A DNA stretch of 34,595 nt from Flavobacteriaceae bacterium (GTDB lineage: Bacteria; Bacteroidota; Bacteroidia; UKL13-3). Where the stretch lies: NCBI GenBank assembly GCA_025363675.1, contig JANYDJ010000159.1, positions 1 through 34,595 on the forward strand, written 5' to 3'. A model generated the notes under the pieces. The model made no database searches and was not told where the DNA came from. It worked only from the letters and a program-made list of their open reading frames with translations. Below are positions 2,198-34,595 of the stretch, piece after piece (position 1 is the stretch's first letter; each line of letters opens with the position of its first letter). The position numbers and the translations under genes are program-made.

Positions 2198-3214
2198 ATG
2201 AAGCTGCGAATACTATTATATCCTTTTTCTATTATATATTATATAATAACTGCTACCCGCAATAGGTTATTTGATTGGGGAATACTGAAGCAGAAACAAT
2301 ATGATATTCCTATTATAGGTGTTGGTAATTTGAGTACCGGTGGGACAGGAAAAACTCCGCATGTAGCTTATATAGCTCAACTTTTGCAGAAACAGAATTT
2401 AAAAGTAGCTGTGCTGAGTCGGGGTTATGGACGCAAAACGAGAGGATATATATTGGCCAATACCAACCATACTGCTTATGATATAGGTGATGAACCATTT
2501 GAATTATATCATAAGAATTTAATGGTAGCCGTTTGCGAAAACAGAAGAGAAGGAATCGAGAAATTACAGGAAACTGTTCAGCCAAATATTATATTATTGG
2601 ATGATAATTTTCAGCACCGATATGTGAAACCAAGTTTACAAATACTACTGACAAGTTATAATGATTTCTTTTACGATGATTATATATTACCTGCTGGTAA
2701 TTTGCGTGAAAGTAGAAATGGTGTTAACAGGGCAGATATTATTATAGTGAGCAAATGCCCAGCAAATTTATCGGAAGAATCTAAATCGAAAATCCAATCA
2801 AAAATATATAATTATTCAAAAGCAACTGTATTTTTCAGTTCATATAAGTACGATGAATTATATAGTTTGAATAATACTTCTGCTAACAATATAAAAGATG
2901 TGATATTATTAACCGGCTTGGCCAATACCGATTATTTAAAATCGTATATTGAACAACATTATAATATTGTTGAGCATCTAAATTATCCCGATCATTATAT
3001 ATACAAAACTGAGGATATAACAGAATGGCAGCAGAAATATAAAAATGATTTTGAGGGTGGGGCTGTTATTATAACTACTGTTAAGGATGCAGCAAGATTG
3101 GATGCTTTGGATTCAATTGACAAGCTGCCAATAATGGTTTTGCCTGTTGAGGTAGATTTTGGGGTGGGTAATGATAACTTTGAACAGTTGCTATTGGGTA
3201 ATCGCTCTTCGTAG
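2198..3214 (+). CDS. lpxK: Tetraacyldisaccharide 4'-kinase
   Basis: IPIIGVGNLSTGGTGKTPHVAYIAQLL...VAVLSRGYGRKTRGY...DDNFQHRYVKPSLQILL; LpxK family. Confidence 0.93.
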   Translation: MKLRILLYPFSIIYYIITATRNRLFDWGILKQKQYDIPIIGVGNLSTGGTGKTPHVAYIAQLLQKQNLKVAVLSRGYGRKTRGYILANTNHTAYDIGDEPFELYHKNLMVAVCENRREGIEKLQETVQPNIILLDDNFQHRYVKPSLQILLTSYNDFFYDDYILPAGNLRESRNGVNRADIIIVSKCPANLSEESKSKIQSKIYNYSKATVFFSSYKYDELYSLNNTSANNIKDVILLTGLANTDYLKSYIEQHYNIVEHLNYPDHYIYKTEDITEWQQKYKNDFEGGAVIITTVKDAARLDALDSIDKLPIMVLPVEVDFGVGNDNFEQLLLGNRSS

Positions 3215-3655
3215 ATTTAGGTATCCAAAAGAATATTTCACTATGTGGTGCAACCATTTCTCTCTTTTTAGGGGCATTTAACATATAACAGAAGAAAATT
3301 AAAATAATTTGGGGAGTATTAAATCCGTTTTATATTGCACACCTACTTATGCTCCTTATCCGACACTAATCTATCCATGTAATTAATTATATTTGCAATT
3401 ATGAAATATTACTTATTATTGTCATTGTTATATCTTTTTCCGCTAGCTATTTCTGGAAGAAAAAATTTGGAAAAATTTTTCAATTTTATAGCAATGGCGT
3501 ATTAGTAGGCATGTCTCTAACACTATGGATAACCAATAATCTAAATATATTTTGGGGAAGTCTATCTCTTGCTAGTTTTATATATAACATTTATACAATG
3601 AATAAATATATAAAAAAATACCCAGAAGCAAAACTTAGTTAGGTTTACTAAACAT

Positions 3656-3690
3656 AAAAGCAGCGTTCCCCAAAAAGGCACGCTGCTTTT
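3656..3690 (-). terminator. Rho-independent terminator (possibly bidirectional)
   Basis: Perfect 10-bp stem AAAAGCAGCG...CGCTGCTTTT just 3' of the HIT gene. Confidence 0.75.
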
Positions 3691-3693
3691 ATA

Positions 3694-4086
3694 TTACAAA
3701 CATTCCCTAATCTTCCTCGCCACTTCAGCTAATTCCTCATGACTTGGATTCAACTTAGGTCGGGTAAAATTCAAATCATCAGCAGTATCAATAGGTACTA
3801 AATGCAGGTGTGTATGGGGTACTTCTAAACCAATTACCGCTACGCCTACTTTTTTACACGGTACTACTTTCTGTATAGCTTTGGCAATAGGTTTGGCAAA
3901 TAACATTAAAGCGGATATGGCACCATCGCCCATATCAAATATATAATCAACTTCTTGTTTTGGAACTACTAAAACGTGACCTTCACGCAAGGGCATAATA
4001 TCTAAAAATGCAAAAAACCGATCATCTTCAGCTATTTTGTGGCAGGGAATTTCACCTTGTATAATTTTAGTAAATATGGATGCCAT
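3694..4086 (-). CDS. HIT family protein
   Basis: ASIFTKIIQGEIPCHKIAEDD...GHVLVVPKQEVDYIFD...GLEVPHTHLHLVPI; HxHxH histidine-triad region. Confidence 0.95.
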   Translation of the reverse strand: MASIFTKIIQGEIPCHKIAEDDRFFAFLDIMPLREGHVLVVPKQEVDYIFDMGDGAISALMLFAKPIAKAIQKVVPCKKVGVAVIGLEVPHTHLHLVPIDTADDLNFTRPKLNPSHEELAEVARKIRECL

Positions 4087-5799: not shown

Positions 5800-8700
5800 T
5801 TAGAAAGTATCCAAATCAACAGGTCTCATAATACCATACCATTTAACAATTTTTTCTCCCAGTTCAAAAGCATTTACATGCACTATATATAATCCACTTG
5901 CTATTGGTACCTGTGCTTGGTTTTTCATATCCCAGTCTGCATAGGTTAGGTCATCATCTTTCTTTATTTGCCTTACCAAGGTTCCGCTCAATGAGTATAT
6001 ACTTATCACACATTTGGGTGGGAGATTAATAAACTTCACCCGCGTATCTAATTGCGAATTTTCATAATTAGATGCTCCGTAATAAGGATTGGGCACCACG
6101 TTTATTTTGTCCATGGCTGCTTTGCCAAGGTCGGTGGAATGATCGACCGCAATATCATTTGTATTAAATGTATAATAAGGATAGTCGTCTGGATTTACTT
6201 TTGAAGAGGTAACATATTTCGAATAAGGTTTTGAAACACGTACACGGTAACGCATTTCGCTGGGTATATTAAGTTTCCCCCCATCATAATTTATATTATA
6301 GCCACTAACCATGTATGGCATAGTAACCCATTGCACTTGCGATGCTACTTGACGCTTGGTGTTAGCATCATCAATTTTATTAGGTGTACTTAGTATTGCT
6401 TGATATGACAATCCCTCGTCGTAAATCGGTCCTGTATAAGAGCCATACTTTACAGGTGCACAAACATATACATGGTGCATGCCGCCCCATAGCGGACCAT
6501 TAAAATTCGCCACATCAGCTGTAGGATTCCACACCATATCAGCTCCATTGTATCCTTTAAGCCAAGAATTTTCACCCATAATAATATTTAACCTTTCGCC
6601 AGTTTCTATATTAATTGCGTATCCAGGGAACCACGAACGCCCTCTATCTGTTGGGTCATACTCGGGTATATAGTTACCCGTGCTGGGGTCTTTTATAATA
6701 TTCCCAGTCCACGAAGCATGGTCTCTTATGCTCCATTTTTTTCTGTTTCCCTCAGCCAATAAAGGGTCTTCGCTCATTTCTACCACCACACATTTAGTCC
6801 ATTTAGATTTGTCGGGCGTAAGTACCAAATCTATGCTTATTAAGTTTGCCATTGAGTTTTCGGTATTGCTTGATACGCTCGACCCCTCAAATGCAGGACC
6901 ATAGGTATCTTCTCCTGTGCTGGTACTCCTTGCGGCTCTTGAACATAACTTATAAGGGGCCATTCTACCGTCACATACTTTTTCATAATTTTCAAAAGGG
7001 TCTAGTCCTTCAAGAGGGCTTCCAAATCTCGCAAAATCATAGGTGTATTTCGATTTATCATTCAAACCTCCCTGAGCATCATATCCAAAGCTTTCAGCTT
7101 TGCCATTCACACCTGCACGTATCCAATTATAATAGCCTCCCCCGTCTTGGTCTTTTACACCGCTTAACCATTTGCGTGTAGGGTCGCTAAACTCAACTGA
7201 TGATTCTATAGAGCCATAATTTTTGTCTATGCTGTCAATACCTGGTTGGTTAGGCTGTTTCATAGCTATAGAGAAACCGTATTCTTTTATTATCTGCTCA
7301 TTGAATTTTTTTAAGGTGCTCAAGCAATTTGTAACTTTCCCTGTTGTCTTGTTGGTAAGCGTCCATATAGCACTATCACGCATTACATTGGGGCTTTTAG
7401 AATATTTTGAGGTATCCTTCATATTAAACTCGAATTCAGCTTTTGGCACTTTTAATGGGTCAATTACACTAACTCTAATTGGTCCGAAACCATTAGTATA
7501 TACTGGAAAATCCATTTTACCATCTCTCAATATTTGATCAATTGAAGCCTTGGTCAACTCAAGAGAGTTTCCTCCGTTTCCTTGTCCCTGCATTCGAGTT
7601 ATCATAGGTCCGCTACCATACAGTGCATTAATTTTGGAGCCGCTACTTGTTGGGTCTGGTTTATGCGGAATACCTGTATAACGTTTCACATTTAAACGAC
7701 CTGCAAGGTACTGCTCTGGGTTTTGATTCATAGGATCATTCGTTAAATTGGCATAGGCTATCACCATAAAATGATACTGTTTAAAATTAACCAAACGTTT
7801 ATCGCCTGTTGCAAATAAATCTTCTTTTACGCTAAATGAATGAACCACACCCGCATTATTTCCAATTACTTTCGATACAAGTAAGGGCGACCCAACCACA
7901 GGATCATATACCCTATTTATTAGTTGAGTAACATTATCATTGATATCCATTTGATTGATTATCCTTGCCTTTTCTGTATTGTCCAAATCACCTGTTGTTA
8001 CACTGGCATCTTTTAATTGATAAATTTGATACCCTTGATACTTATAAATAAAACTATCCAAAGGGTTTTTAGAAAAGGGGTTGCGAATCTTGCCCACATA
8101 ACTCTCTGTTTCAACAGTATTTGTATTTTCAAGTACTACAATCAGTTCGTTGTCATATTCTTTTATGCTCAAGTCTGGGGCTCTTGGGCCATCTATTAAT
8201 TTGAAATTATTATTGAAAAGTATCTGTGCTTTATCGTCGGCATTCTTAAGTTGGGTGAGTGAACCTGTTGCTCCCCCTATACTACTGCGAGCCCAAACTG
8301 CACCTACCGTCATCTCGTTGCGGGCACCTGTTTTTAAAGTTAAAGGCCCGACACTTTGCAAAAACCTACGATCACCAGGTTGATTGCCAGCTCCCTTTTC
8401 TGTCCATCCATTATTGGTTACTGGGTCGCCGTTAAACATAAAGTTATATGGGGTTGCACCTCCGCGACCGTTGCCACCATAGGTTACGTGCTGCCCATCT
8501 TGCCATAATGCTCGTAGGTAATTATAATAGTGTAAGGGTTTTGTAGGATTTCCTATCACACTAAAATCATTATTATAATACATAAACGCATATAAGGGCA
8601 ATTCGTCACCGTTTTCATTTTTTGGTCCTCTAAACAAGTCCAAACCAACTGTGGGAGGGTTTAAGCCATAACCTAAAATACCTTCGTCATTGTCGTCACC

Positions 8701-9642
8701 ATTATAGCAATATCCTAAATTCCTATTAGTATCACAACCCACATAGTCATCGGAATAGTTGCCCAAATCAGGGTCAATCCACTGGCCGAAATAACAGTCT
8801 TTAACTGGTTCGCCATAATTGGTTATTTCAGTGGAATAAAAAGTCATATTATTTATCTCATCATTGGTAGTGAAAGCAAAAGCTGTGGTTTTAAGCTCTA
8901 GCCCAATGGGTACTCCTTGTGTTTCAGAATGTATATTACCTATATCATTATATACAAACCACAATGCTTGGTCACCTTTTACATCTGGATAATCCCCTTG
9001 TCCTGGCTGGTATCCAAAGCCTCCGCCATTTTCTATATAGGGTGCCATGTGAAATTCTTCCCCATAGCCAATATTGCCATTTCCCGGCCAATCTAAAATG
9101 GCTTTGGTAGTATTTGCACTAAAGTTTTTAAGATACAGGTCAATCTCTTCGCGGGTTACTTTATATATTTTATCATAATACTCACAACGTTCTGGTGCAA
9201 TCTTGGCAGTTGAAGTTAGAGCGTCTACAGAATCTATCGCTCCTGCAAAAAAGTCTATTCCGTTTTGGCGATAAGTCATAGCGGCAAGTTTTAAGTTGTT
9301 ACCTGCATCTACTCCTCCTATCCATAACGAACCGGCAAATATCGAATGCTTGCGTATACCATTAGGGTCTGTTACTTTTGGAATTTCATATTTTGCACTT
9401 ATCAAGTTCCACCACATATCACCACCATTTAAAATAGTAGTACGCACATTGTTAATATCCAGATCTACCTGTGCTGTCGGGGCTTTACATCCATCAGCCA
9501 TAGTGCGGAACAGATTATTATCGATATGCGACGGTGGGGTGCCCATTATTTCGCGAGCGGTAGAAGTATTTACCACAATGGCTGTGAGTATAACAGCAAG
9601 CAACCAATTACTTTTTGCAGTATATATATTTGAGATTTTCAT
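5800..9642 (-). CDS. Large secreted protein with T9SS-type C-terminal sorting domain
   Basis: 1280 aa; N-terminal signal; C-terminal INVVPNPYYGASNYENSQLDTRVKFINLPPKCVISIYSLSGTLVRQI...ASGLYIVHVNAFELGEKIVKW. Confidence 0.85.
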   Translation of the reverse strand: MKISNIYTAKSNWLLAVILTAIVVNTSTAREIMGTPPSHIDNNLFRTMADGCKAPTAQVDLDINNVRTTILNGGDMWWNLISAKYEIPKVTDPNGIRKHSIFAGSLWIGGVDAGNNLKLAAMTYRQNGIDFFAGAIDSVDALTSTAKIAPERCEYYDKIYKVTREEIDLYLKNFSANTTKAILDWPGNGNIGYGEEFHMAPYIENGGGFGYQPGQGDYPDVKGDQALWFVYNDIGNIHSETQGVPIGLELKTTAFAFTTNDEINNMTFYSTEITNYGEPVKDCYFGQWIDPDLGNYSDDYVGCDTNRNLGYCYNGDDNDEGILGYGLNPPTVGLDLFRGPKNENGDELPLYAFMYYNNDFSVIGNPTKPLHYYNYLRALWQDGQHVTYGGNGRGGATPYNFMFNGDPVTNNGWTEKGAGNQPGDRRFLQSVGPLTLKTGARNEMTVGAVWARSSIGGATGSLTQLKNADDKAQILFNNNFKLIDGPRAPDLSIKEYDNELIVVLENTNTVETESYVGKIRNPFSKNPLDSFIYKYQGYQIYQLKDASVTTGDLDNTEKARIINQMDINDNVTQLINRVYDPVVGSPLLVSKVIGNNAGVVHSFSVKEDLFATGDKRLVNFKQYHFMVIAYANLTNDPMNQNPEQYLAGRLNVKRYTGIPHKPDPTSSGSKINALYGSGPMITRMQGQGNGGNSLELTKASIDQILRDGKMDFPVYTNGFGPIRVSVIDPLKVPKAEFEFNMKDTSKYSKSPNVMRDSAIWTLTNKTTGKVTNCLSTLKKFNEQIIKEYGFSIAMKQPNQPGIDSIDKNYGSIESSVEFSDPTRKWLSGVKDQDGGGYYNWIRAGVNGKAESFGYDAQGGLNDKSKYTYDFARFGSPLEGLDPFENYEKVCDGRMAPYKLCSRAARSTSTGEDTYGPAFEGSSVSSNTENSMANLISIDLVLTPDKSKWTKCVVVEMSEDPLLAEGNRKKWSIRDHASWTGNIIKDPSTGNYIPEYDPTDRGRSWFPGYAINIETGERLNIIMGENSWLKGYNGADMVWNPTADVANFNGPLWGGMHHVYVCAPVKYGSYTGPIYDEGLSYQAILSTPNKIDDANTKRQVASQVQWVTMPYMVSGYNINYDGGKLNIPSEMRYRVRVSKPYSKYVTSSKVNPDDYPYYTFNTNDIAVDHSTDLGKAAMDKINVVPNPYYGASNYENSQLDTRVKFINLPPKCVISIYSLSGTLVRQIKKDDDLTYADWDMKNQAQVPIASGLYIVHVNAFELGEKIVKWYGIMRPVDLDTF

Positions 9643-9677
9643 AATCTTTATTCTTGGGTTTAGTGTTTTTTTTAAAA

Positions 9678-12600
9678 TTAGAAATTGTATTTAATACCTA
9701 TTCTAAACAATCGAGGTGTTAAATAATTGCCGGGGCTATTAACGCGAACATTATACATGTCAACAAATGCCTGAGATGAATTAGCACGGGTAAGTGCCTG
9801 GCGGCCTAAATCTGAAGTTAGGTAACCATCATCGCTGGCTGAGCCTGTATAGCGATAAACGCGTGTAATATTCTGCTTATTGAATAAATTATTTACCCAT
9901 AAGTATATATTAATGGCCTTAGGTGCTTTCTTTACCTCGCCTCTGCTTTTTATCAATATTGTTTTATCAATAGTTAGATCCATTAAATATCTCCATGGAT
10001 TGCGTGAGCCATTTACAGTACCTCTAATTTGTGAACGTTGTACCACACCAACCTGTCCTTCGTTTATAGGTTGTGAGTTTGAGGTATAAGGTGTGCCACT
10101 TTGGGCTTGGAAGGTTAAATTAATACCAGCATTTTGTAAAGGATATACTTTCACAGTATTCCCTTTACTGTCTTTGCTTTTATAATTAGGTCCATCATTT
10201 GGATTATAATGAAAATCGAAGATTCCTTTAATATTATGGCGGGTATCATAGTCCAATGGGAACAAAGTACGCAAATTGGGCTGGCCAGCATTAAGTAATG
10301 ATTGGCTAGAAGCGGCATTGGAACCTGTTCCATCTGCAAATTGTAACATATAATTGGCGGTAAGGTTAATATTTTTATTGGGCCCAGCGTCTCTTATTTC
10401 ATATTCAACCCTGAAACTTTTAACCGTTCCAAAATCGAGGTTGCCAAAAGTAGTATAACTAATTGGATAAGCTTGATTGTATTTGAAAAGCTGAACGAGA
10501 TCACGCATTTCGCTGTAAGAAGCAGTGAGGCTAAGGGCTGCATTGCTCGATATCTGTTGTTTAAATCCAAGCTCGTAGTCTGTTTTACGAATCGGTTTCA
10601 AAGCAGGGTTATTAATAACTTCTGTTGAACGTTGTCTTAAGAAATAATAATCATCCACAGTTGCAATCACGCCTTCTGGTGGACGTTGGGTTAACACATC
10701 ATAATTTACGAAAAACTGCGACTCATCGTTAATAGGAAACTTGAACCAGATACGTGGCATAAAATACAATTTGGGTCTGTATGCCTGAAAAGAATTAACG
10801 GTGAGTTTTTGGTTTGGATTATTATCTACCAAATAAGGTGCAATACGTCCTGATGAATTTCTACGGTCGGTTGCTAATACTGTGGGGTCATTAATTTGTA
10901 TGCCATTATCATCGTACCACTTGGTTTGATTATTATTTTGGTTGGTATTGCGATAGCCCAAAATGGTGGTTGGATTTTCAATGTCATTTACATATACCGA
11001 TGCATCATCAGCCATTTGAGAGTTTAACTGTGCTGACAATTTGCTGTTTTCTGCACGCACCTCCCTTACAGTTTTTGTAGGATATAATGAATAGGGGTCT
11101 TTTAGTACGCTTTGGTTTGCATCATAACGGTCGATGCGAAGTCCGACGCGGAAAATCAAATCTTTAAATGCAAACTTGTCTTGGATAAATGCTGATTGAT
11201 AAATGGGCTGGAAAGCTCCAATAGTACGATGTGTTGAATCATTAAAGAAATCAGCAAAACTGGGTTTGTTGCCTTTTAGTTTATTACCCAAATAATCGTA
11301 ACCAAAGTAATTAACATAGGCCGTTCCATTGTTTAATAATTCATCAGGACTAAAATAACTTAGCTTATAATGCTCAGGTCCGTACATCATCACATCTAAA
11401 TAAGAATTGGGACCAATAGGATTTCCATTATAATCTTTAGCCCCCACTTCCATTAAATGCTGGCGAAGGTTGCTTGTGAAAACACCCTCACGGCCTGGTG
11501 CTACTACTGAATTATATGATACGCTATCTTGGAAAACGCCATTTGCATCAAACGACAATAGAGGATTTGCCTTATCAAATTTAGGCTCTGATTGTGTAGC
11601 AAGCTGCCTCATAAGTGACCAAAGCTGGGCAGGGTTGGCCATACTCCAACCACGAGAAAAACGTTGCTCGTATATAATACCAAATTGTAAATCGTGTTTT
11701 TTATTAGGATCTCTTTTGCTTTGCAGGGTAATTTCACTCATGGCAAACAAGGTATATTTTTCTGTTTGCGATTTGCCATAACCCGACCCTTGGGTTCCTA
11801 CATTATTCCACATGGAGTAAACACTTGTAGGATTGTCGCCATTAAGAAGTGCCAAGTTAGCTCTAATCTGATCTAAGTTATATACATTCCTACCTAACTG
11901 CTGCTGGTATGCATAAAAGTTCTTGGTATAATTTGCCCTTATAGCATTGCGATTTTGAGCATCGGGAACAAAGTTTACTGCAGTATCATAATAGCCTGCT
12001 TGTTGGTAATAGGTACTAATTGATACTGTGGTATCATGTCCGTTAATTTGGGTTTTGAACTGATGTTTTGGGGCATTAATATTACCTCCAACTAATTCGT
12101 AATAGGGTGCACGCTTGGTGGTAAAACTGCCTATATACCCATAATCAAATACTTTATCTTTATGGGTTGCATCTAAGGTGAGGTTGTTGCCTTGCGTATA
12201 ATCAAATCTAATTTGGTAATAGGCATTGCTCACTATAGATTTACTTTCTTCTTCATCGCCTTTTTTCTTTTCAGCACTTTTTAAAGTATGGGTAAACTTA
12301 ACGTACCCTGTAGCAGTGCTTCCTGTTGAATGATTGTTTTGAGAATTATTGAACAAGGTATTGCCAAAATTATAATTAATGGCATCGCCATACGAATAGA
12401 AACCACCTAGATCTATTCTCACCTTTTTGGTGGGCTGAAATTTTAAAGCACCATTTAAATTGTAATTATAAGTAGGTGTGTTGCGGCGTGCTTGGTCATT
12501 AACCATATCATCTTTGGTAACAAAATCGGCGGCATTCATATAACCGGTATTGTTTTTTGATGGCAGCAAAGGTGTTTGTTCTATCTTTTTTAGCACATCA

Positions 12601-13490
12601 TCTTTTACATACCAATTACCTATCACGCTAGGGTTTGGGTCTTTCACATAGGTATAATTGCCTCCTAACGAGTAGCCTAAAACTACATGCTCCTTAGCCC
12701 CTTTGTTTTTATTTTTTATCCAGATAGGGCCTTGCAAAAAACCTTCAATTAAATTATAATTATACTTATCTGTTAGCTTTGAACTTACTATTTCAATTCC
12801 ACCATGTGTAACTCGCGAAGGGCCTTTGGTAGTAATATTAGTTACGCCTCCTGTAAAATCGCCGTACATTGCGGGAACACCTCCAACCAATACTTGCAAC
12901 TGCTCTATACTACCCCGTGGTACTGAATTTCCTACACGTATGCCGTCAATAAATACAGCATTACCATTGTTACGTGCTCCACCTATGTTTCCAACACCTC
13001 CGCCAAAACCTGTAGTTTTAGCGGCAAAGCCGGTTGCATCTCTGTTTCCTCCTATTCTTGAAAGGGCTTTTGCATCAAAAGTTGTAGCATTTGCTCCATC
13101 ATCTGTAATTATTTTTGTTTTAATTTTGGCCTTGGGTGCATGTATAATAACTCCCCCAATTTCCACAATTGCATCCATTACTTTATCGCCTTTGGCTATC
13201 TCACTTATTCTAACCTGCAGTGGCAAAGAATCTGTCTCGTATCCTTTCAAGTTATACACTACTAAATAATCTCCGGGTGTGAGGGGCTTAAAACTAAATC
13301 CTCCGCCAGAATTTGTATAGGTATTATCAGTATTATTACCATCCTTAAATAAGGAAATCTGCACGCCTGGCAGTGGTGCTTTAGTTTTACCATCGGTAAC
13401 GATGCCTCGCATCTCGCCATCTGAACTTTGAGCTTTGATTACGCCTGTAAATAAAAGGCAACCTAATGCTAGAATGAAAATCTTTTTCAT
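9678..13490 (-). CDS. TonB-dependent receptor with N-terminal carboxypeptidase-regulatory-like domain
   Basis: Start corrected to MKKIFILALGCLLFTGVIKAQ (ATG 13490); GIVTDGKTKAPLPGVQISLFKDG; plug GGNIGGARNNGNAVFIDGIRVG...GGVPAMYGDFTGGVTNITTKG; C-terminal RLFRIGIKYNF. Confidence 0.92.
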   Translation of the reverse strand: MKKIFILALGCLLFTGVIKAQSSDGEMRGIVTDGKTKAPLPGVQISLFKDGNNTDNTYTNSGGGFSFKPLTPGDYLVVYNLKGYETDSLPLQVRISEIAKGDKVMDAIVEIGGVIIHAPKAKIKTKIITDDGANATTFDAKALSRIGGNRDATGFAAKTTGFGGGVGNIGGARNNGNAVFIDGIRVGNSVPRGSIEQLQVLVGGVPAMYGDFTGGVTNITTKGPSRVTHGGIEIVSSKLTDKYNYNLIEGFLQGPIWIKNKNKGAKEHVVLGYSLGGNYTYVKDPNPSVIGNWYVKDDVLKKIEQTPLLPSKNNTGYMNAADFVTKDDMVNDQARRNTPTYNYNLNGALKFQPTKKVRIDLGGFYSYGDAINYNFGNTLFNNSQNNHSTGSTATGYVKFTHTLKSAEKKKGDEEESKSIVSNAYYQIRFDYTQGNNLTLDATHKDKVFDYGYIGSFTTKRAPYYELVGGNINAPKHQFKTQINGHDTTVSISTYYQQAGYYDTAVNFVPDAQNRNAIRANYTKNFYAYQQQLGRNVYNLDQIRANLALLNGDNPTSVYSMWNNVGTQGSGYGKSQTEKYTLFAMSEITLQSKRDPNKKHDLQFGIIYEQRFSRGWSMANPAQLWSLMRQLATQSEPKFDKANPLLSFDANGVFQDSVSYNSVVAPGREGVFTSNLRQHLMEVGAKDYNGNPIGPNSYLDVMMYGPEHYKLSYFSPDELLNNGTAYVNYFGYDYLGNKLKGNKPSFADFFNDSTHRTIGAFQPIYQSAFIQDKFAFKDLIFRVGLRIDRYDANQSVLKDPYSLYPTKTVREVRAENSKLSAQLNSQMADDASVYVNDIENPTTILGYRNTNQNNNQTKWYDDNGIQINDPTVLATDRRNSSGRIAPYLVDNNPNQKLTVNSFQAYRPKLYFMPRIWFKFPINDESQFFVNYDVLTQRPPEGVIATVDDYYFLRQRSTEVINNPALKPIRKTDYELGFKQQISSNAALSLTASYSEMRDLVQLFKYNQAYPISYTTFGNLDFGTVKSFRVEYEIRDAGPNKNINLTANYMLQFADGTGSNAASSQSLLNAGQPNLRTLFPLDYDTRHNIKGIFDFHYNPNDGPNYKSKDSKGNTVKVYPLQNAGINLTFQAQSGTPYTSNSQPINEGQVGVVQRSQIRGTVNGSRNPWRYLMDLTIDKTILIKSRGEVKKAPKAINIYLWVNNLFNKQNITRVYRYTGSASDDGYLTSDLGRQALTRANSSQAFVDMYNVRVNSPGNYLTPRLFRIGIKYNF

Positions 13491-13853
13491 GATCTTTTGT
13501 TTTTTCTTGTTTAATCCAATAATTGTGTCAACTGGTTCAGTATCAAAATTTATTGCCCTGCGACACAGTTTTTGGGGCAACAAATAAAAAGAATTTTTTA
13601 ACAGGTTGTAACTTCTTGGTGAAATTTCCCGTTTCGCTTCTCTTTCAAATGGTGTAACGCCCTGTTAAAAATTATGGTTGCACTTGTTTTTTTTAACCTT
13701 GGCTACAAATTGTCTAATAGCTTTTAGATATCAGTTTTTCAGCTATTTAAAATTGCATTTACTTTACAAACCCTCAGCATTTTGTCGAATTACAAATCGG
13801 TACTCGATAATTTTACTACCGATATTTTAATATTGTTGTGGAAAAATGATTGG

Positions 13854-16031
<2,178 letters not shown>

Positions 16032-30012: not shown

Positions 30013-30249
30013 GTGGTAAATGAAAGTAGTGTAGCTAATGCTGATAGTAGTGTAGCTAGTAGTGAAAGTGGTGTAGCTAATGCTGATAGTAGTGTAGCTA
30101 GTAGTGAAAGTGGTGTAGCCAATGCTGATAGTAGTGTAGCTAAGTGTGAATGTGGTGTAGCTACTAGTGAAAGTAATGTAGCTAATGCTGATAGTAGTAT
30201 AGCCAATGGTGAAAGTGATGTAGCTAATAGTGAAAGTGATGTAGCTAAT
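30013..30249. repeat. 21-bp minisatellite, about 11 units (alternating types giving a 42-bp higher-order period)
   Basis: Units GTAGCTAATGCTGATAGTAGT / GTAGCTAGTAGTGAAAGTGGT; reads VANADSS/VASSESG on + and LATLLSA/LATPLSL on -. Confidence 0.95.
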
Positions 30250-30319
30250 CGCTACTTTTATTATTTTTTAGTTTATGGATTGAGGGTTAGGTTTGCGGGA
30301 TTGGAGAAACGGAAAACTG

Positions 30320-30351
30320 CACAAAGCCAACCAGAAATGGTTGGCTTTGTG
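30320..30351. other. 14-bp perfect stem with GAAA tetraloop
   Basis: CACAAAGCCAACCA GAAA TGGTTGGCTTTGTG; not followed by a T-tract; 24 nt 5' of the first cassette core site. Confidence 0.85.
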
Positions 30352-30419
30352 TGATAGAGTTGCTCCTATAACTAAGTTACCTGCAAGCGTAGCGGACGAC
30401 ACAGCAACGACCAACGACA

Positions 30420-31100
30420 ATGAAAAAAACAATATTCATACTTGGACTTTTAGGACTGACAATTTTTGGTGGACTTTACGCTAAACGAAAATTTTACGAC
30501 CCAAAACACCGACTTGACAACGCAAGAAATGAAGTAAAAAAACTTGCTGACCAAGACGAAATAAAAAATGGCGACCTAATATTTCAAACCTCACTTTCTG
30601 GACAAAGTAAAGCCATTCAACTTGCGACAAAATCAAAATATTCACACTGCGGACTTATCTACAAAGACGGCAATGACTTCTTTGTTTTTGAGGCGGTTCA
30701 ACCTGTTAAGCGGACACCACTTGACAAATGGATTGCCCGAGGAAAAGACGGTAAGTATGTAATCAAACGACTTAAAAACGCTGACCAAGTTTTAACTTCT
30801 GCGACACTTCAGAAAATGAAGCAAGTTGGCGACAACTTTAACGGCAAAGACTACGACCTAACTTTTGAGTGGTCGGACGACAAAATTTATTGCTCAGAAC
30901 TAATTTGGAAAATCTACCAACGGGCGACAGGAATTGAAATTGGTAAACTTGAAAAACTTAGCGACTTTGACTTGACAAACGAAGCTGTTAAACAAAAAAT
31001 GAAGGAACGTTACGGGGACAAAATCCCAACAGAAGAAATTGTAATTTCACCGGCAGCAATTTTTGACAGCGAACTTTTGACAACAATAAAATCAAACTAA
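30420..31100 (+). CDS. YiiX/YebB-like permuted papain-fold (NlpC/P60-like) cysteine hydrolase
   Basis: IKNGDLIFQTSLSGQSKAIQLATKSKYSHCGLIYKDGNDFFVFEAVQPVKRTPLDKW...DDKIYCSELIWKIYQRATG; His/Glu/Cys motif order of the permuted fold; N-terminal TM. Confidence 0.85.
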   Translation: MKKTIFILGLLGLTIFGGLYAKRKFYDPKHRLDNARNEVKKLADQDEIKNGDLIFQTSLSGQSKAIQLATKSKYSHCGLIYKDGNDFFVFEAVQPVKRTPLDKWIARGKDGKYVIKRLKNADQVLTSATLQKMKQVGDNFNGKDYDLTFEWSDDKIYCSELIWKIYQRATGIEIGKLEKLSDFDLTNEAVKQKMKERYGDKIPTEEIVISPAAIFDSELLTTIKSN

Positions 31101-31474
31101 TGACAGAAGTAAAATCTAATAAATGGAGGAAATGGATTTTTCGTTTATCCATTACTTTCAATATAATTTTCGGTTTCGGTTTGTTTTTAAATTACATAAA
31201 CTCACCGACCTATAAACTTGGAGTTTTGACACAAGACGTAAATGCAGGGTTTCTCGCAGGTGACAGCACAATTTATAAAATCCCAAAAGGTATTACTGTT
31301 CGTGACGTTTCACCTCGTGGCATTGAAGCAATTGGACAATTTGAAAATAATCGCTTTGAATTAGTTTTCACAACCGACCGAGACGATTTAGTTAATTACA
31401 ATATTTCAAAGGACAATTTATTTCAGTTTGGTAATTATTATTCAGCAGACAAATCACCAGGGACAGCAAGATGA
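31100..31474 (+). CDS. Hypothetical small membrane-anchored protein
   Basis: TAATGA coupling with the upstream gene (1-nt overlap); N-terminal TM WIFRLSITFNIIFGFGLFLNYI. Confidence 0.6.
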   Translation: MTEVKSNKWRKWIFRLSITFNIIFGFGLFLNYINSPTYKLGVLTQDVNAGFLAGDSTIYKIPKGITVRDVSPRGIEAIGQFENNRFELVFTTDRDDLVNYNISKDNLFQFGNYYSADKSPGTAR

Positions 31475-31500
31475 AAACAGCAACGACAGAGAGAACGCCA

Positions 31501-31635
31501 GCAGGTAACAGCACCTACCCAAAAGGCGGGGTTTCGTGTTCCAAAGACAGCTTTGTGGTTAATCAAACATTAGTTTTTCAAATCAAGTTTTGTGGTAAAA
31601 GTCCCGCCCTTCGGGTAGCTGCAAAACGTTATGCG
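31501..31635 (+). other. attC site 1
   Basis: R'' GCAGGTAAC; stem CTACCC..GGCGGG / CCCGCCC..GGGTAG; R' GTTATGCG. Confidence 0.85.
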
Positions 31636-31709
31636 TCATTGGAGAACGCGTGTAACGAACTTTATCGCAACGAACAGAGCTAAATAAAACAATTAAAAAA
31701 TAGAACATA

Positions 31710-32147
31710 ATGAGAACCTACGGAGCATCACAAAAACTTGTTGACATACTTTTGAAAAATGGTTTTGCCGACAACACAGAAAAAGACTATCCTCAACATT
31801 TTAAAAAAATGAATGAGAAAGGTTACGACCCTGATAAAATTAAAAGACAATTTGCAAGAAATTCGCATAAGGACTACATTATATTTGATTACATAAATAT
31901 TCATCCTATGTATAATGGTAGTTGCCACGGCAATGAGAGCAGAATAACTCTTACAGAACCTGAATTAAAATCAATGATTACGTTTTATAAATTAACCCCA
32001 CAAGATAGAAATGCTTGGAGAAAGTTGTATGATTGTATTCCAGAACTTCATTTGCATTACGAAAAAGTTTGTGAACAACCAAGAATATATAAAACTCCAC
32101 TTGACAAGAGGGTAAAAGAGATATTTGAAAACATAGTTCTTGATTAA
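31710..32147 (+). CDS. Hypothetical cassette protein (145 aa)
   Basis: ORF fills cassette 2; MRTYGASQKLVDILLKNGFADNTEKDYPQHF...; no family recognised. Confidence 0.65.
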   Translation: MRTYGASQKLVDILLKNGFADNTEKDYPQHFKKMNEKGYDPDKIKRQFARNSHKDYIIFDYINIHPMYNGSCHGNESRITLTEPELKSMITFYKLTPQDRNAWRKLYDCIPELHLHYEKVCEQPRIYKTPLDKRVKEIFENIVLD

Positions 32148-32213
32148 GAATATCTAAACAAGTAAGTATAAAAAAGTAAATAAATAATTAATTAATCTTT
32201 AAAAATTAAAACA

Positions 32214-32399
32214 ATGAAAGAGCAAGAATTAGACCCAAGAGACAAAGCGGATTTAGATAATCACGCAAATCAATTAAATCCTAACAACGATGAGTATGAT
32301 GGGGACGATGATGATGACCAAGACGATGACCACGACTATGACAATGATAATCATAGTAACCAGTTAAACCCTAACAATGACGAATATCGTGGTGGTTAA
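32214..32399 (+). CDS. Small acidic protein with duplicated NHxNQLNPNNDEY motif
   Basis: DNHANQLNPNNDEYDGDDDDDQDDDHDYDNDNHSNQLNPNNDEYRGG; purine-rich upstream region. Confidence 0.6.
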   Translation: MKEQELDPRDKADLDNHANQLNPNNDEYDGDDDDDQDDDHDYDNDNHSNQLNPNNDEYRGG

Positions 32400-32458
32400 A
32401 AAAATACCTGTAAACATACCTGAAACACTTGAAAACATTGACACGAAAGAACAACGAA

Positions 32459-32556
32459 CGCATAACATTAGCTTGCCGAAAATGCCGCCAGACAGCTCTC
32501 TGCTAATTTTAAAGTGTCTGCAAGGCGGCACTTCGGCAAGCCCTGACCGTTAGCGG
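32459..32556 (+). other. attC site 2
   Basis: R'' CGCATAAC; GCTTGCCGAAAATGCCGCC / GGCGGCACTTCGGCAAGC stem; R' GTTAGCGG. Confidence 0.88.
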
Positions 32557-32630
32557 TAATTGTAACGACCGACAGTGCAAACATTAAACGAAAGAGAAAA
32601 ACAAAATAGTAATCAATAAAAAACAACATT

Positions 32631-33032
32631 ATGGCATACAAGAAAAAAGTTTTCGTTAGCTATGACTACGACAATGACAAACATTACAAGAATTTGCTTT
32701 TGGCTTGGGACTCAAACAAACTGTTTGACTTCTCTATTCACGACCATTCAGCAGACGTTTCTATTAACAGCACAAACGCAACAGCGATTAAATCTGTTCT
32801 TTCACGTTACATAAATGAAGCGACCTATTTTTTAGTTATTGTTGGTGCAAAGACACACAAAAGTGCTTGGGTAAAATGGGAAATTGAAAAAGCAGTTGAA
32901 TTGAGAAAAAGAATAATTGCAGTAAAAACAGACAGAGAAAACACTTCTCCAGACGCACTAATGGGAATTGGAGCAAGTTGGGCAATGTCTTTCACTTATG
33001 ACGCAATTACAAAAGCAATCGACAACGCATAA
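32631..33032 (+). CDS. TIR-like (MTH538/DUF1863-type; Thoeris ThsB-like) protein
   Basis: KKKVFVSYDYDNDKHYKNLLLAWDSNKLFDFSIHDHSADVSINSTNATAIKSVLSRYINEATYFLVIVGAKTHKSAWVKWEIEKAVELRKRIIAVKTDR...GIGASWAMSFTYDAITKAI. Confidence 0.88.
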   Translation: MAYKKKVFVSYDYDNDKHYKNLLLAWDSNKLFDFSIHDHSADVSINSTNATAIKSVLSRYINEATYFLVIVGAKTHKSAWVKWEIEKAVELRKRIIAVKTDRENTSPDALMGIGASWAMSFTYDAITKAIDNA

Positions 33033-33035
33033 ATT

Positions 33036-34289
33036 ATGGCGACAACAAAAACTTGCTTTGTAATTATTGGTTTTGGACCAAAACCCGACCCCGAAACGGG
33101 ACGAATTGTTGATTTGGACAAAACTTTTGAAAATTTAATTAAGCCAGTTTTTGACGACCTTAAAATAGAGTGTTTTAGAGCAAAAGAAATTCGACATTCG
33201 GGCAATATTGACGAACAAATGTATGATTGGATTTATAAAGCCGATATTGTGGTAGCAGACATTTCAACCCACAATGCAAACGCTTTATATGAACTTGGAG
33301 TTAGACATGCTCTAAGACCAAACACAACTATTGTAATTTCGGAAGACCAAACAAAATATCCTTTTGATTTAGCACATACAGTAATTTCAACCTACGAACA
33401 TTTAGGAAAAGACATTGGTGTTAGTGAAGCAAATCGCTTTAAAAAGCAACTTAAAGAAACTGTTTTAGCCGTGTTAAAAAGTAAAGCGAAAGACAGTCCT
33501 GTTTATACTTATTTGCCGAAACTTCAACCACCAAAATTTAATGATGAAGACCTAAGAGAAATTATTGTAAAAGATAGTATTCAGCCTTCGTTTTCAGAAC
33601 TAATAAACGATGCTGAAAAGGCAAAAAGCAATAATGAATTTAAGGTTGCTGGTTTATTATATGAGGTATGTTTAAAGTTCGAGCCTAATAATGTTTTCCT
33701 ACGACAACGATTAGCACTTGTAACATATAAAGGATGTAAGCCGACAATTAAAAAGGCACTTTTTGAAGCAGAAAATATTTTAAAGGAATTAAAGCCAGAA
33801 GAAACAACGGACACAGAAACACTTGGACTATCAGGAGCAATAAACAAAAGACTTTTTGAAGAAACAAAAGACGAAAAGTATCTTGATAAAGCCATTTGGT
33901 TTTATTCAAAAGGTTATCACATTGCACAAGACTATTACAACGGAATTAACTATGCTTTTTTGCTTACAACAAAAGCAACACTTCAGACAGACAAGCTTGA
34001 GGCAATTTCATATTTCAAGCAAAGTCAAAGGACACGAGAAGAAATTGTAAAATTATGTAACGATTTAATCAAACAGAAAACATTCAAAGACCGTGGCGAC
34101 CAAGAATGGATTTATCAGTCTTTAGCACAAGCATATTTGGGGCTTGACAAACAAACCGAACTGAAAACAATAATCGGTAAAATCAATAAATTATCTAAAG
34201 GACAGTTTGACCTTGACACATTTTTAGAACACAACAAAAAACTTATTGACAACATTGAACTCATACGAAAGAAGAACAACTACCGCTAA
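33036..34289 (+). CDS. TIR/nucleoside-deoxyribosyltransferase-like N-terminus plus TPR-like 'TRAFs-binding'-type C-terminus
   Basis: CFVIIGFGPKPDPETGRIVDLDKTFENLIKPVFDDLKIECFRAKEIRHSGNIDEQMYDWIYKADIVVADISTHNANALYELGVRHALRP; C-terminal ETLGLSGAINKRLFEETKDEKYLDKAIWFYSKGYHIAQDYYNGINYAFLL. Start is 3 nt after the TIR stop. Confidence 0.82.
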   Translation: MATTKTCFVIIGFGPKPDPETGRIVDLDKTFENLIKPVFDDLKIECFRAKEIRHSGNIDEQMYDWIYKADIVVADISTHNANALYELGVRHALRPNTTIVISEDQTKYPFDLAHTVISTYEHLGKDIGVSEANRFKKQLKETVLAVLKSKAKDSPVYTYLPKLQPPKFNDEDLREIIVKDSIQPSFSELINDAEKAKSNNEFKVAGLLYEVCLKFEPNNVFLRQRLALVTYKGCKPTIKKALFEAENILKELKPEETTDTETLGLSGAINKRLFEETKDEKYLDKAIWFYSKGYHIAQDYYNGINYAFLLTTKATLQTDKLEAISYFKQSQRTREEIVKLCNDLIKQKTFKDRGDQEWIYQSLAQAYLGLDKQTELKTIIGKINKLSKGQFDLDTFLEHNKKLIDNIELIRKKNNYR

Positions 34290-34417
34290 CAGCACATTTG
34301 CAATAGGCGGGGTTTCGTGCTCCGCAGACACATTTGTGGTAGCCGAAAGTTTTGTGCTCCGCATCAAGTTCAGTGGTAAAAATCCCGCCCATCGCAAATC
34401 TGCAAACCGTTAGGTGC
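34281..34417 (+). other. attC site 3
   Basis: R'' TACCGCTAAC; stem ATTTGC..GGCGGG / CCCGCCC..GCAAAT; R' GTTAGGTGC. Confidence 0.88.
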
Positions 34418-34595
34418 AAGCGTAGCGGACGACACAACAGACCTCGACAGGCAGACAATTTAACAGAAAAAGTAAACCATTTTGACGAGTGACCAAAGAC
34501 ATACAGACCATATCAAAATCGGACATCAAGTAAGCCGACACTCCTTGCCGACCCTTCTGTATTTTTTATTTTTCCCCACCGCACTTTTTTTTAAT

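Follow-up and report, generated by a model that had tools for sequence, protein, structure and literature searches.

The Vibrio-type superintegron, with its integrase IntI, is among the closest described counterparts of the locus reported here, a block near the right end of a 34,595-nucleotide stretch (positions 1 to 34,595 of contig JANYDJ010000159.1, assembly GCA_025363675.1) from a Flavobacteriaceae bacterium of the class Bacteroidia; this stretch, at its full length, is referred to below as the window. Both have an attI followed by tandem gene cassettes, a G^TT crossover and R''/R' complementarity within the cassette, and in both the attC sites are imperfect inverted repeats with diverse arms, the open reading frames (ORFs) run in the direction of the array, and the bottom strand of attC folds better. 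The block is very probably an attI-headed gene-cassette array belonging to a Bacteroidia-wide integron-type system that is run by a tyrosine recombinase other than IntI.

The additional domain of IntI has served as a selection criterion (PMC2426708), is treated as a defining trait of integron integrases (PMC9024848, PMC9668308), and has been called necessary for integron recombination (PMC9668308). Integron surveys identify integrases via this domain, and almost none have consequently been reported in Bacteroidetes, where only In0 elements had been found before one complete integron, in Salinibacter (PMC9024848). The Bacteroidia system, with a recombinase that lacks the supposedly defining domain, has therefore largely escaped such surveys, and no paper describing it was found in the open-access literature, preprints excluded, on Bacteroidota integrons and XerA-type integrases.

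A second relevant category is the CALIN (cluster of attC sites lacking an integron integrase), defined by at least two attC sites without a nearby integrase. The window, with three attC sites and no integrase, has these features, but its array begins at a recognisable attI, which lies outside that definition, and a matching recombinase is encoded elsewhere in the genome. A preliminary description of the window had proposed a chromosomal integron or CALIN; an integron-type array in a Bacteroidota genome is retained from that proposal, whereas the attI at the left end makes the array more than a CALIN, and the recombinase is not IntI.

Boundaries and recombination sites of the window array

The elements of the array are listed here, with scores from the covariance models R1 (attC) and R2 (attI).

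30304..30380, + strand: attI, an inverted-repeat element of ~75 nt ending in TATAACTAA followed by GTT, crossover at 30376; R2 43.5 bits, E 1.5e-7
30377..31628, + strand: cassette 1 (TT...G), 1252 bp; start GTTACCTGC, exact reverse complement over 9 nt of R'' GCAGGTAAC at 31502
31498..31636, + strand: attC of cassette 1 (R''-L''...L'-R'); R1 110.2 bits
31629..32549, + strand: cassette 2, 921 bp; start GTTATGCGT, exact reverse complement over 9 nt of R'' ACGCATAAC at 32459
32455..32557, + strand: attC of cassette 2, short form; R1 35.8 bits, E 7.9e-7; circle-form fold about -31 kcal/mol
32550..34409, + strand: cassette 3, 1860 bp; start GTTAGCGGTA, exact reverse complement over 10 nt of R'' TACCGCTAAC at 34283
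34279..34417, + strand: attC of cassette 3; R1 102.7 bits
34410..34595, + strand: cassette 4, beginning only, truncated where the window ends

Four G^TT cores, at 30376, 31628, 32549 and 34409, delimit the three complete cassettes, and the 3' core of each link doubles as the start of the next. The first core is not an orphan, as it is the crossover of the 77-bp attI. Over its first 31 nt, cassette 4 matches the beginning of cassette 1 at 90% identity. The cores, the cassette lengths, the exact reverse complementarity of all three cassette starts to their R'' boxes and the placement of every cassette ORF on the + strand agree with the preliminary description, apart from the second match, which spans 9 nt and had been given as 8. 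A G^TT boundary combined with an R'' complementary to its own cassette start is the arrangement known from integrons.

Three independent matches of 8-10 nt had also been considered very unlikely by chance. A single start/R'' match of this length with a weak stem arises about 12.5 times per shuffled window, counting both strands. For this reason 8-nt matches alone were dropped as evidence, and a chain with strong stems was demanded instead. Because lone matches are frequent by chance, the evidence lies in three strong-stemmed links that follow one another as a chain; under the stricter stem rule, real control DNA yielded one link in 2 of 198 regions and two links in none, against three consecutive links in the window.

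The R1 model was trained on 44 sites, 42 of them from other genomes, and includes two of the three window sites, the weakest being excluded. It scores nowhere above 9.5 bits elsewhere in the window and detects seven attC sites in the source genome, and no Rfam family matches. The TAAC..GTT core of the cassette 1 attC is common to many genomes of the family at 80-97%. Covariation among 89 non-redundant sites follows a clean ladder of positions, from +2/-6 to +20/-24 relative to the AAC and GTT boxes. In the 44-site alignment, compensatory changes occur in all 18 attC arm pairs, and 88.8% of the arm cells are paired, compared with 59.9% after shuffling and 31-38% in every slid register; the paired percentage is biased upward, since the sites were partly found via arm complementarity, and more weight falls on the variety of pair types. 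The L arms contain a weak or mismatched pair at +5/+6, possibly the counterpart of extrahelical bases. When folded in circle form, the bottom strand is better in 54 of 60 sites. Folds, covariation and model scores thus all describe attC sites as imperfect inverted repeats of the R''-L''-L'-R' type. The preliminary description had staked its reading on recognition of these sites by attC models and on the absence of the block as fixed DNA in close relatives; R1 scores all three sites, and same-genus relatives diverge before the block (vide infra).

As in an integron, the array is headed by an attI. Roughly 75 nt 5' of the first core recur in conserved form from array to array, folding into an inverted repeat whose arms covary between lineages; in the attI alignment, arm sequences vary by lineage yet stay complementary, with examples including GCGAAACAAACCTTCGC / GCGAAGGTTTGTTTCGC versus TATG...CATA types, as if the arms were co-evolving with the recombinase. 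The R2 model was built without the window sequence, and a position weight matrix for attI gives 26.2 at 30304-30380 against 9.4 at the next best window site. No integrase is detectable upstream of this attI within the window, as the preliminary description had noted for the window; genome-wide that statement fails, as a recombinase sits on another contig (C172) of the same genome.

Five attIs, including that of the window, are present in the source genome. Those of the window and of contigs C32 and C240 are near-identical and head different cassettes, and an upstream integrase is detectable in none of the three, although only 27 nt were available for inspection in C32. On contig C212 (1320-1396), a strong attI (55.7 bits) has an arm type unlike that of the window and no upstream integrase, and is followed by one very weak attC only (21 bits). 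In two related genomes (G006 and G018), arrays at 2523-4035 (locus L251) and 12915-14375 (locus L254) each contain two or three attI-like elements ~0.7-1.4 kb apart; those of the latter locus adjoin attC sites, and attI may travel inside cassettes. The end of another array of the source genome (contig C215, 1478-2997) has a ferredoxin-like (NuoI-like) gene within ~1 kb; arrays therefore sit between housekeeping genes.

The array-linked recombinase family

The source genome assembly comprises 3.53 Mb in 279 contigs and is 87% complete. It contains four tyrosine-recombinase matches: two Xer proteins, one fragment, and one protein that heads an array.

C172:51376-52410, same strand as its cassettes: tyrosine recombinase, 345 aa, heading an array

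Directly 3' of the recombinase stop, on the same strand, lies the core GTTATGGCTC, followed by a first cassette with two genes that match PADLOC PD-T4-2 A (E 1.2e-50) and B (E 1.3e-7). The attC of this cassette has the R'' GAGCCATAAC, which is exactly reverse-complementary to that core. Core, cassette and attC follow the same rules as above, and the window layout therefore recurs beside a recombinase.

This arrangement is widespread. Among the source genome and its relatives, the recombinase was found in 44 of 58 genomes searched and attC in 39 of 40, with at least 52 attC sites in one complete genome. GTDB genomes contain at least 556 recombinase loci; the 80 that were kept are nearly all from Bacteroidota, many of them Flavobacterium isolates. 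Where 2 kb or more of downstream sequence was available, chained cassettes follow the recombinase in 38 of 52 loci, as opposed to 2 of 198 control regions; two or more cassettes are present in 25 of these loci, with a maximum of eleven. The first cassette mostly begins 70-130 nt past the recombinase stop, typically 95-102. Cassettes have a median length of 968 bp, and the longest ORF runs in array direction in 114 of 122. All 20 recombinase-bearing Bacteroidia genomes have attC, compared with 3 of 8 without the recombinase (n=28; Fisher p 5.7e-4). One array headed by the same recombinase is borne on a plasmid of Chryseobacterium sp. SNU WT5 (NZ_CP041688.1); its cassettes include an IS110 element and a group II intron reverse transcriptase, with Crp/Fnr regulators in two places. 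The recombinase gene of Flavobacterium daejeonense (10001-11041) has an in-frame stop at codon 3, and represents either a later start or a pseudogene.

Across 32 members, the six catalytic residues R204, K229, H294, R297, H320 and Y329 show no variation. The spacing between the GKGxKDR and LRH motifs is 63-66 aa in 100 Bacteroidia recombinases and 107 aa in IntI (n=8 measurable automatically); the IntI-specific insertion of ~43 aa, seen in all aligned IntI, is absent from all 100, and the gap relative to the IntI4 crystal sequence is ~42 aa. An IntI-family integrase with the additional domain around patch III is thus a component of a strict integron definition that this system lacks. The IntI model TIGR02249 gives 208 bits, below its cut-off of 265. 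Phylogenetically, the array-linked recombinases form one clade (100/99) apart from IntI (100/100), although the main clade does not include three array-bearing relatives that are more distant. A sister relationship to IntI (98/93), seen in a first tree with few outgroups, was not kept, as adding transposon-type recombinases left the branching order without support. Because the additional domain is absent and the clade is separate, the array-linked recombinase is, by its sequence, not an IntI.

XerA-type recombinases use single dif-like sites and are not known to be associated with cassette arrays. XerA and archaeal XerC-like proteins (NF040815; PDB 4a8e, 5hxy) provide the best fold and sequence matches and share the catalytic-domain length and the lack of the IntI insertion, whereas the array-linked recombinases form their own clade. 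Two further differences from the Vibrio-type superintegron concern layout: in Bacteroidia the integrase gene is on the cassette strand with attI ~100 nt past its stop, and attI, which heads many integrase-less arrays, takes the form of a large inverted repeat in which the arms covary. The reverse-orientation integrons of Spirochaetes, likened here by description, also have an integrase reversed relative to the usual divergent layout, but their integrases are IntI (PMC9668308).

In place of the additional domain, most array-linked members have an extra N-terminal domain of ~60 aa, with a predicted beta-beta-alpha-beta-beta-alpha fold and two conserved Trp residues. Signals that are weak yet concordant suggest a resemblance to HARP/DUF5710, a type of module known to bind branched single/double-strand DNA: in Pfam searches with 30 members, HARP appears at E 4e-4 in 2 and DUF5710 at E 0.0096 in 11, and the SMARCAL1 HARP domain (PDB 4o66) ranks second by profile (E 0.36) and first by Foldseek fold (E 1.1). 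Foldseek with the full recombinase model returned relatives of the catalytic domain only, and array-linked members of 266-279 aa lack the N-terminal domain. A HARP/DUF5710-like role for this domain is speculation.

Cassette movement and alternative explanations

Relocation of cassettes is visible in relatives. Two arrays of one complete genome (G022) share a 968-bp cassette at 100% identity, Flavobacterium saccharophilum has two copies of a 1088-bp cassette that agree at 99.6%, and a 1437-bp cassette of Flavobacterium denitrificans recurs at 93% identity in Pelobium manganitolerans, a member of another family, and at 94% in a Bacteroidia metagenome-assembled genome. Similarity stops at, or no more than a few nucleotides from, the GTT core, and the flanks are unrelated; the exception is in F. 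saccharophilum, with short flank similarity between neighbouring attC sites. When searched as DNA across the family, the window cassettes mainly returned attC repeats and a gene match of ~67%, and the evidence for mobility therefore comes from the cassettes of relatives and not from the window's own. At the window locus, both same-genus genomes (nifU 97% identical) match up to 29929, just past nifU, and then diverge; no attI or attC was found in the 530 and ~1430 bp of their flanks beyond that point. Between nifU and attI (30021-30249), a 21-bp unit, TGAAAGTAGTGTAGCTAATGG, is repeated in tandem ~11 times in the window; this repeat is unaligned in these two relatives.

The block most likely works like an integron array, and the system, which fails a strict IntI criterion, is judged to be a variant of the integron. 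The recombinase of ~345 aa would recognise attC as a folded single-strand hairpin, probably of the bottom strand; cassettes would be excised as circles through G^TT exchange and inserted at attI. Since no integrase lies beside the window attI, any capture or shuffling there would draw on the recombinase located elsewhere in the genome. Complete genome G022 carries a series of attIs, preceded by an intact recombinase, by what is left of its C-terminus (146, 83 and 20 aa), or by none; loss of the integrase beside a kept attI is thus a recurrent event, which makes it plausible that arrays are served in trans.

The same series also speaks for a dead or dying array, in which the integrase beside the window attI was deleted and nothing acts now, and the lack of a detectable integrase upstream within the window fits this as well. 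Such decay is a genuine but lesser possibility, given that the source genome has an intact recombinase, that its three near-identical integrase-less attIs head different cassettes, and that the R''/start pairs are still exact. A more radical alternative dispenses with recombination and regards the sites as terminators, or as conserved palindromic repeats, in the intergenic stretches of ordinary genes. Both attC and attI do form hairpins, and the attI hairpin at 30320-30351 looks like a terminator stem; yet each R'' pairs with its own cassette start ~1 kb away, the block is missing beside nifU in same-genus relatives, and the relocations, with homology stopping at GTT and cassettes recurring beside new neighbours, contradict it, so that this explanation can practically be discounted.

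Two other explanations keep the recombination and change the enzyme. An IntI could lie in the unassembled or lost part of the genome, which would make this a canonical integron or CALIN and the short recombinase near arrays incidental. Canonical IntI is indeed common in other classes of the phylum, scoring over cut-off in 84 of 297 phylum genomes sampled, R1 attC sites occur there too, and the source assembly is incomplete. However, 83 of those 84 genomes are labelled as the same phylum only, the one from the same class (G093) has no R1 attC, the source genome has no IntI match at E<=1e-55, and in dozens of Bacteroidia loci a short recombinase immediately precedes an array, separated from it by a conserved attI, all of which renders a missed IntI improbable. 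It is less probable still that host XerC/XerD or transposon-linked tyrosine recombinases move the cassettes: both Xer proteins are present in the source genome and an SPLD-like C-terminus is common to transposon-type recombinases too, but no cassette chains follow those genes, and it is the monophyletic array-linked clade that precedes attI.

Several observations nevertheless weigh against an array run by the array-linked recombinase. Contigs C172 and C184 are united by binning only. The arm sequence of the window attI differs from that of the integrase-linked attI of C172; the two might be served by different enzymes, and one shared enzyme for both might therefore not hold. Under strict rules, 14 of the 52 recombinase loci have no chain. 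R1 also matches in genomes of other classes with canonical IntI, and the attC type is therefore not exclusive to the array-linked recombinase of Bacteroidia. Finally, what the sequences show are the boundaries, the attI, covarying attC sites, the linkage of the recombinase to arrays and, in relatives, cassette relocation with exact boundaries; catalysis, strand choice, service in trans and cassette function are inferred from them.

If the attI-headed, non-IntI reading is correct, the whole class Bacteroidia would carry a parallel integron-type system, which would provide a natural means of testing if attC recombination requires the additional domain, a new cassette pool with phage-defence genes among its members, and a clue to integron origins; the models and boundaries make the system searchable. 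A bolder version is tentative and rather doubtful: attC hairpins would be recombined without the additional domain, a HARP/DUF5710-like module would take over recognition in many members, and one enzyme would serve dispersed arrays in trans. Were this true, the integron principle would have arisen twice or would predate its supposed defining domain.

Genes of the cassettes and of the remaining window

The following ORFs are carried by the window cassettes.

30420..31100, + strand: cassette 1, 226 aa, Peptidase_C92 (YaeF/YiiX permuted papain-like amidase), Pfam PF05708 E 1e-30
31100..31474, + strand: cassette 1, 124 aa, no family match (Pfam, PADLOC)
31710..32147, + strand: cassette 2, 145 aa, no family match (Pfam, PADLOC)
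32214..32399, + strand: cassette 2, small Asp-rich ORF of 61 aa, from sequence reading
32631..33032, + strand: cassette 3, 133 aa, ThsB-like TIR (putative anti-phage), Pfam ThsB_TIR E 5.5e-20, PADLOC ThsB E 6.7e-21
33036..34289, + strand: cassette 3, 417 aa, TPR-S (putative TIR sensor partner), Pfam TPR-S E 1.1e-21, PADLOC TIR effector E 8.9e-9

From these family matches, the TIR and TPR-S pair of cassette 3 probably has a part in phage defence. In relatives, restriction enzymes, methylases, and Septu- and Mads-like proteins recur among 77 cassette proteins. Outside the array, two adjacent long ORFs of 1280 and 1301 aa occupy 5800-13583 on the minus strand of the window, the former without a Pfam match.

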